Below, piece after piece: positions 19,209 to 20,664 of a DNA stretch of 21,043 bases (position 1 is the first letter of the stretch; every line of letters starts with the position of its first letter). The translations under genes were made by a program, and so were the position numbers. The stretch comes from a virus: IMG/VR virus record IMGVR_UViG_3300004369_000186, positions 1-21,043 of that record. One strand, 5' to 3'. The notes beneath the pieces were generated by a model. The model was not told the origin of the DNA. It searched no databases and saw nothing but the letters and a program-made list of their open reading frames with translations.

Positions 19209-19441
19209 AAACACAGCTGCACAAATACAGGCAGAAGCTGGTGCAGCTGCTGGCAGAAAGGGACATGCTGCGCAGGCAGTATGGCAGGCACAGCCCCAGG
19301 TCAAAGATTCTGGATCAGGAAATAAATGCCACAGCCAAAGAATATGCTGCAGCCAGGAAAGCCATGCTGCACATCACACTGGCAGAATTGAAGCAGCAGT
19401 GGGGCAAAAGATTGGGCTGGGATGAAACAGATTGGAACTGA
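19205..19441 (+). CDS. Small basic helical protein
   Basis: The 78-residue protein appears to be two long helices with basic faces (LHKYRQKLVQLLAERDMLRR and NATAKEYAAARKAMLHITLA), a probable coiled coil, and a Trp-containing end. It starts on the previous stop (ATGA) and overlaps the initiator gene by 20 nt. I do not recognise it. Position between recombination and replication initiation genes suggests a helper role in one of these. Confidence 0.72.
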   Translation: MKTQLHKYRQKLVQLLAERDMLRRQYGRHSPRSKILDQEINATAKEYAAARKAMLHITLAELKQQWGKRLGWDETDWN

Positions 19442-20162
19442 CAGCACCAGGGATTTTCAGGGCATCTGGATACCTGCAGCCCTGTGGAAGGATAGAACAC
19501 TATCCATGACACAGAAGGTCATTTTGCTGGAAGTGCGATCATTCCAGAAGCATGGCATGGCCTGCTTTGTTTCAAATGAACACCTGGCTGATCTGTGTGG
19601 TGTCAGCAGCAGCGCCATTGAAAAAGCACTGCAGAAGCTGGTGCAGGATGGACACCTGAAAAGGTGGACGGAATACACAGGGAAGAAACGCAGCAGGAAG
19701 ATGGCTGTGCTGCATCACCAGATGTGGGAACACCCACAGCCAGCTGTGGCACCTGACCAGAACCAGCTGAGGGTACCACCCACAGCCAGCTGTGGCACCC
19801 ACCCACAACCAGCTGAGGGTACCACCCACAGCCAGCTGCGGAATAATAATACAAGAGAACAGTACAAAGAACAATCCAAAGGAAGAAAGGAAAGCACACC
19901 CCAATCCATTCAGGATGTGGTGACATACTTCAGCCAGCTGCAGGTACTTGATCCTGAAAGCATGGCAGAAGATTTCTGGAACTACTATGAAAGCAATGGA
20001 TGGCAAGTGGGCAAAAACAAAATGAAGAACTGGCATGCAGCAGCCAGCCAGTGGAACAAAAGACAAAAGCAATACCATGAAGAACGAACTGCAAAAGGCA
20101 AGGGATACACAGGTGTCAATTCAGCAGACCTTGCAACAGCTATCCAAAATCAAACCAGCTGA
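19422..20162 (+). CDS. Replication initiator-like protein, lambda O-like in organisation
   Basis: The 246-residue protein has an N-terminal winged-helix domain at about residues 27-95: LSMTQKVILLEVRSF, then SNEHLADLCGVSSSAIEKAL as the helix-turn-helix, QKLVQDGHLKRW and a basic wing. Residues about 104-142 are a low-complexity Pro/Gln/Thr linker that is simply the readout of five 23-bp DNA repeats. The C-terminal part has FWNYYESNGWQVGKNKMKNW at ~188-207, common in replication proteins of Bacteroidota phages. The plan, DNA-binding domain, repeat-bearing linker and C-terminal partner domain, is that of lambda O. It should bind the repeats in its own gene and start replication. Overlaps the next gene by 86 nt. 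Confidence 0.8.
   Translation: MKQIGTDSTRDFQGIWIPAALWKDRTLSMTQKVILLEVRSFQKHGMACFVSNEHLADLCGVSSSAIEKALQKLVQDGHLKRWTEYTGKKRSRKMAVLHHQMWEHPQPAVAPDQNQLRVPPTASCGTHPQPAEGTTHSQLRNNNTREQYKEQSKGRKESTPQSIQDVVTYFSQLQVLDPESMAEDFWNYYESNGWQVGKNKMKNWHAAASQWNKRQKQYHEERTAKGKGYTGVNSADLATAIQNQTS
19732..19846 (+). repeat. Five iteron repeats at 23-bp period, candidate replication origin
   Basis: Five copies start at 19732, 19755, 19778, 19801 and 19824; the CAGCTG core recurs at 19741, 19764, 19787, 19810 and 19833, exactly 23 bp apart. Most copies read ACCCACAGC-CAGCTG-TGGCACC or ACCCACAAC-CAGCTG-AGGGTACC, the two forms alternating, so a 46-bp unit is also repeated. Copies 1 and 3 contain the perfect inverted repeat CCACAGC-CA-GCTGTGG. 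Since 23 is not a multiple of three, each copy is read in a different frame, so the repeat is selected as DNA and not as protein. They are likely binding sites for the initiator. Confidence 0.82.
19841..19895 (+). other. A-rich, purine-biased stretch beside the iterons, candidate unwinding element
   Basis: Directly after the fifth repeat the + strand becomes A-rich and purine-rich; in 19841-19880, 29 of 40 bases are A or T. The lambda origin has an AT-rich, strand-biased region next to its iterons where melting begins. The same order here supports the origin call. Confidence 0.6.
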
Positions 20163-20664
20163 CCTGACACCATCAGCTGCATTCACAGCAGGAACCAATG
20201 TGCGCACAGCTTACAGGCTGGCACCACATGAAACCACAATGGCACTGGCTGCCATGATTGACAGCACCTGCAAATACATTGATGCAAACAAAAGCATCCA
20301 GGGTGCAGAAGCACTGGCTGAATGTGCCAGGTATCTGCTGGATCAGTTTCCTGTCTTCACACTGCAGGAATGGATGCTGGTGCTGTACAGGATCAGGCAT
20401 GGCTACTATGTCAAACAATATGGGGACAGGTTCAAAATCTATGAACGTCTAAAGACAGAAGAACTGGCCAGGTTTGCATGCAAGCATGAAGAAGAAAGAT
20501 CCTACCTGCTGGAAGAAATACACAAACCACAGCCAGCACGTGGATTGCCTATGGGTGTGGAAACCACCAGCATCAGATACCAGCCATCAGGCAGGAAAGG
20601 AAGTGGAACCAGAATCAGGGAATACTTTGATAAGGTGATGCCTGAAGACAAAGCCAATGAATGA
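20077..20664 (+). CDS. Possible helicase loader or replication accessory protein
   Basis: The 195-residue protein follows the initiator, the place of lambda P. It starts with a helical, Gln-rich segment (LQKARDTQVSIQQTLQQL), then IDANKSIQGAEALAECARYLLDQFPVFTLQEWMLVL and IRHGYYVKQYGDRFKIYERL, a pattern I associate with a small family of replication-region proteins in Bacteroidota phages. The C-terminus is basic and Gly/Arg-rich. A loader role is inferred from place only; no ATPase motif is visible. ATG at 20077 chosen; the frame is open to 20035. The overlap with the initiator gene is 86 nt. Confidence 0.7.
   Translation: MKNELQKARDTQVSIQQTLQQLSKIKPADLTPSAAFTAGTNVRTAYRLAPHETTMALAAMIDSTCKYIDANKSIQGAEALAECARYLLDQFPVFTLQEWMLVLYRIRHGYYVKQYGDRFKIYERLKTEELARFACKHEEERSYLLEEIHKPQPARGLPMGVETTSIRYQPSGRKGSGTRIREYFDKVMPEDKANE

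Follow-up and report, generated by a model that had tools for sequence, protein, structure and literature searches.

An initiator gene with an internal array of dyads

The window analysed here, all 21,043 bases of contig IMGVR_UViG_3300004369_000186 from an uncultured virus, is probably a fragment, because its final gene runs past the contig end. Open reading frames, together with Pfam and PHROG profile matches, outline a replication/recombination cluster at ~17-21 kb, which includes genes for a PD-(D/E)XK exonuclease of the exonuclease VIII kind and a Mrr/RusA-like nuclease, a replication initiator gene with a lambda O-like layout (19422-20162, + strand, an open reading frame of 246 aa), an overlapping gene and an HNH gene. 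The initiator matches PHROG families for replication initiation (1.8e-17) and O-like proteins (1.6e-11; families 270 and 391), and its N-terminus matches HTH_36 (1.8e-10). Against the Pfam family Phage_rep_O (PF04492) it scored 17.7 bits, under the curated cut-off of 28.7, and a Foldseek search with the initiator model returned nothing at E <= 0.001. Homology to lambda O itself is therefore not established.

AlphaFold2 modelling divides the protein into two folded domains joined by a disordered linker (residues 109-154). The N-terminal winged-helix domain (residues 19-96; 19476-19709, + strand; pLDDT about 80-93) is the putative iteron-binding domain in this model and has weak fold matches to the DnaD N-terminal domain, MarR proteins and plasmid initiator-DNA entries. 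The C-terminal helical domain (residues 163-224; 19908-20093, + strand; motif YYESNGWQVGKNKMKNWH) is kept across relatives and putatively contacts the helicase or its loader. The model confirmed the order proposed in the first-pass annotation, namely, DNA-binding domain, iterons, A-rich region and C-terminal domain.

The gene carries five 16-bp dyads spaced exactly 23 bp apart, each unit consisting of a 16-bp CCNNA-N6-TNNGG element and 7 further bp. The iterons lie at 19734-19749 (CCACAGCCAGCTGTGG), 19757-19772 (CCAGAACCAGCTGAGG), 19780-19795 (CCACAGCCAGCTGTGG again), 19803-19818 (CCACAACCAGCTGAGG) and 19826-19841 (CCACAGCCAGCTGCGG); between 4 and 7 of the 8 arm pairs are complementary in each, with 7/8 in copies 1 and 3. 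Thus, the first-pass report of five exact 23-bp repeats in the middle of a winged-helix replication gene stands, with the dyads at 19734-19841 inside the 19422-20162 reading frame and the HTH_36 match at its N-terminus. The array encodes the mostly disordered linker. Tandem Repeats Finder (TRF) assigned periods of 23 and 46 to 19717-19838, and the copies are most alike when compared as 46-bp units. A degenerate form of the repeat matches the array only, with none of 100 shuffles giving 4 hits, and the rest of the contig holds no other match within 3 mismatches. Lag-23 identity amounts to 63/94, compared with 41.2 +- 4.7 in synonymous recodings that drew on the phage's own codon usage, and was reached in 0 of 20,000 of them.

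Two details of the earlier description were revised. CAGCTG, previously taken as the core, is indeed present in all five copies (starting at 19741, 19764, 19787, 19810 and 19833) but was rejected as a specific core: its 61 copies place it second in frequency among the contig's hexamers, so that its presence says little, and the conserved unit is CCNNA-N6-TNNGG. Likewise, the 23-bp step does shift the reading frame, but the encoded peptide is not different in every copy, because copies 1 and 4 share one frame and copies 2 and 5 another, so that only three frames are used.

As the first-pass annotation had noted, the repeats are followed by an A-rich stretch. The flank at 19842-19880 contains a 12-bp repeat (AATAATAATACAAG...; TRF period 12 at 19848-19881), and 19841-19880 is 72.5% AT in a contig of 50% GC, the most A-rich stretch nearby. 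Its A content of 60% puts it among the highest 0.15% of 40-bp windows, and by AT content the 40-bp window at 19843 is in the contig's top 0.7%. The flank is probably a DNA-unwinding element. The 12-bp repeat may be a single-strand recognition element. A 12-bp periodic repeat of the ACTAATACAAG type is found in the A-rich flank across the family, where it encodes an N/T/S-rich peptide.

The overlapping downstream gene (20077-20664, + strand), which occupies the position of lambda P and is without functional assignment, is kept beside the initiator in relatives. The products of these related genes match DUF6633 weakly (E 4e-4 to 6e-3), and the 20077-20664 product is a candidate helicase loader, perhaps of a new family.

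GC skew showed no turning point at the array and is uninformative here, since the contig is a fragment coding almost entirely on one strand. A promoter scan, with a consensus that may not apply to this virus, found no promoter. Comparison of the region with cultured phages by blastn gave no match, and searching genomes of bacteria and archaea at the protein level yielded no confirmed relative. At 391-1125, the window also encodes a predicted N6/N4 DNA methyltransferase (PF01555, 2.1e-35), and its target site is perhaps of interest given the high frequency of CAGCTG in the contig. CAG/CTG-type words are abundant in general over positions 1-21043 (CAGGCA, 67 copies; CAGCTG, 61; CAGCAG, 60; CTGCAG, 57), apparently as a codon or composition bias.

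Conservation of the dyads among related initiators

The nearest relative, L013/L014 (the same contigs also appear as L019/L020 and L043/L044), came to light through the repeat motif as well as through the downstream gene. Of the matches to CAGCTGNGG pairs spaced 23 bp apart, it alone was relevant, the remainder being unrelated. Its initiator is 68% identical to that of the window, and it carries five dyads at 23 bp followed by the same GGAATAATAATACAA of the A-rich flank. Identity at third codon positions between the two genes is 0.71 in the array, compared with 0.39 on its N-terminal side and 0.45 on its C-terminal side, and synonymous codons are identical in 22/31 cases within the array versus 48/123 outside it (P 0.002). 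Agreement is 66/80 in the iteron boxes and 30/30 at the CC..A......T..GG positions, compared with 14/28 for spacers. A comparison of this kind had been proposed in the first-pass annotation. The loss of codon-position bias within the array, together with the fully identical core, supports the earlier proposal that selection acts on the DNA.

A profile search recovered 36 related loci from viruses, the relatives being 29-68% identical. Averaged over 20 loci, linker DNA self-similarity was 0.42, 0.39 and 0.37 at lags 23, 46 and 69, against a mean over lags of 0.27, and no such peaks were seen in the N-terminal region of the same 20 loci. The synonymous-recoding test gave z values of 2.1-5.5 for period 23 in 14 relatives. 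Nearly all full-length relatives keep the 23-bp dyads while sequence and peptide differ, the pattern being only weakly present in L062, L063 and L073. The first-pass annotation had named relatives that keep the peptide and lose the repeats as the observation that would count against it; the opposite was seen. Where the spacing departs from 23 bp, the frame is kept: L045 is spaced at 23, 22, 24 and 23 bp, and the two more iterons that distinguish L056 from L064 amount to 45 rather than 46 bp. Among the distant C-terminal relatives L001-L005, significant in-gene repeats were detected only in L004 (24-bp) and L005 (a simple repeat).

The half-site differs by clade (CCTCA, CCGTA, CCGGA or CC(A/G)CA); the middle bases vary and the period of 23 stays. 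Half-site sequence tracks both the initiator phylogeny and the recognition-helix variants. Arm complementarity exceeds that of shuffles at positions 3/14, 4/13 and 7/10, indicating that the arms covary, in a test that ignores relatedness and draws on few independent switches; the signal is inflated by kinship, because the tree needs only about 5 half-site class changes.

Two further features of relatives are worth recording. In L056, L059 and L074, a dyad CCGTAGAATTTTACGG or similar lies at bases 252-267 of the initiator gene, over wing codons (RRILR), so that the same DNA would be both a target of the binder and the code for one of its structured parts. In L046 (3201-4097), L055 (1536-2549) and L071 (4162-5025), the gene after the initiator and its downstream partner resembles, by eye, a DNA cytosine methyltransferase (HGSLFSGIGGFDLAA).

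As an independent test that left protein information unused, we scanned a set of 2.9 million viral contigs for CCNNA-N6-TNNGG dyads occurring three times at 23-bp steps. The pattern was matched by 27 contigs, in 22 of which the array lies within an ORF matching the initiator profile. Sixteen of the 27 were already known through protein searches, and 6 of the other 11 match the profile and are thus new from DNA alone. In control scans, initiator ORFs accounted for 2 of 43 matches at 24 bp and 2 of 7 at 22 bp, with L108 counted in both, which ties the 23-bp period to initiator genes. The arrays of L099 and L107 lie in ORFs that by eye look like helix-turn-helix replication genes and match no Pfam or PHROG family. 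In cellular genomes the triple dyad is not diagnostic, because only 2 of the 80 matches listed (at least 80 in all) fall in initiator-like ORFs; these are Roseibaca L169 (1508-2596; E 1e-6) and Sulfitobacter L183 (1304-2413; E 5e-5).

A candidate origin and the alternatives to it

Considering the array, its flank and their conservation together, we regard it as very probable that 19734-19880 is a replication origin located in its own initiator gene, with one initiator dimer per dyad, melting of the flank and delivery of the helicase. The encoded winged-helix protein would occupy each 16-bp dyad as a dimer, and five dimers at 23-bp steps would form a compact nucleoprotein array with bent or wrapped DNA. 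This array would melt the adjacent A-rich flank (19842-19880), the C-terminal domain and/or the 20077-20664 product would then recruit the helicase, and replication would start within 19734-19880.

The array could instead be an operator or a copy-number control site through which the initiator autoregulates, with replication beginning elsewhere. Winged-helix proteins are often autoregulators, iteron-based copy-number control is known in iteron plasmids, and binding to the array would look identical in sequence under either account. Nevertheless, the contig contains no further copies of the repeat, the array sits mid-gene with a conserved A-rich stretch after it, and annotation places the family among replication initiators, all of which makes a purely regulatory site unlikely. 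Nor does a host factor, acting in place of the encoded initiator, fit the data well: although recognition of the repeats by the encoded protein is something we infer from sequence, the half-sites follow the initiator phylogeny and the recognition-helix variants, and the matches found from DNA alone fall in initiator genes, leaving this account barely credible.

The remaining alternatives concern the origin and the level of action of the repeats. Slippage could have grown a tandem repeat that is tolerated in the linker, or the repeat could be kept for the linker peptide; the linker is disordered, and tandem duplication could add copies, for which the best resemblance as 46-bp units would speak. 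Against both versions, a step of 23 bp does not divide into whole codons, the period is lost on synonymous recoding, third positions are conserved in the array, and relatives preserve period and dyads with a different sequence and peptide. Moreover, a repeat at the peptide level would favour a period of 24 bp, yet initiators show no enrichment of that period, and we consider this explanation very unlikely. A row of mRNA hairpins was rejected as not conserved and is extremely unlikely: predicted folding of the array in the window beats that of shuffled sequences (z -3.67), but the same array in the nearest relative shows no such excess (z -0.02); the arm pairs show 74 mismatches and only 6 G-U pairs, and in many sites the two half-sites differ from each other, as would be expected if protein dimers bind there.

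Relation to known in-gene origins

Replication origins within initiator genes have ample precedent, having been established for lambda O, SPP1 gene 38 and several plasmids. In lambda, O attaches to its inverted-repeat iterons as a dimer, and the adjoining AT-rich region opens (PMC5043065, PMC7466680); comparison of lambdoid origins goes back to 1979 (Grosschedl and Hobom, as cited in PMC5043065). The window shares with lambda O/ori, and also with 933W and P27, an N-terminal DNA-binding domain, dyad iterons in mid-gene and an AT-rich flank on the C-terminal side, and as in lambda the next gene sits in the helicase-loader position. Variation in iteron number with the frame kept is shared as well: in Stx phages, two extra iterons amount to 13 codons (PMC7466680), comparable with L056 versus L064. 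In contrast, the iteron of the window is a 16-bp CCNNA-N6-TNNGG element rather than the 18-19 bp ATCCCTCAAAACGAGGGA of lambda, the pitch is strictly 23 bp, and no recognisable lambda P lies downstream. The first-pass view that the period is unlike lambda's is not supported: the annotated 18-bp iterons of lambda are spaced 20, 24 and 23 bp apart, and a 23-bp period is thus less foreign than first thought. Lambda O itself, in the same lag test, gave a best lag of 23 that was not significant (P 0.09). A lambda-type in-gene iteron origin is supported in kind for the layout, with a protein that falls outside Phage_rep_O in the Pfam sense.

In the SPP1 origin oriL, the initiator binds direct repeats within its own gene 38, beside an AT-rich unwinding element (PMC6316719). 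The window has the same combination of in-gene repeats and AT-rich element, whereas the second SPP1 origin, oriR, has no counterpart in this partial contig. The plasmids pSK1, pSK41, pAD1, pSX267 and pLS32 also carry iterons inside the initiator coding region (PMC3155836); they differ in being plasmids rather than phages, and the initiator model has weak fold matches to the initiator/Rep-DNA entries 4pql, 4pt7 and 5kbj (E about 0.008-0.02). The replication initiation protein of Pseudomonas phage Skulduggery is related to that of the window (31% over part), and its gene has an in-gene repeat array at codon 94 and is followed by a DnaC-like loader gene, but with a period of 22 and another repeat sequence.

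New in this system are the family of 16-bp dyads itself, the strictness of its 23-bp pitch, and half-sites that turn over while that pitch stays; a literature search, not an exhaustive one, found no paper on a 23-bp dyad family. More tentatively, and with rather less than even confidence, we suggest that these genes form a widespread class of phage initiators that carry a fixed 23-bp dimer ruler (CCNNA-N6-TNNGG) in their own linker codons, with half-site bases and recognition-helix residues switching together. The ruler would not vary, since the geometry of the initiator array depends on it. If so, each gene would be a matched lock and key, with a specificity code readable by sequence comparison. 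Because site and binder are one gene, every uncultured member would supply a DNA-binding domain paired with its target, and such matched pairs would amount to a natural data set on the evolution of initiator specificity, in which a single coding stretch is under two constraints at once. The 23-bp dyad signature could also be used to search unannotated phage contigs for origins and initiators.

In the cellular data, Roseibaca L169 and Sulfitobacter L183 have O-like genes with in-gene 23-bp repeats (CCGGA...), and these contigs are possibly prophages or plasmids in culturable relatives.
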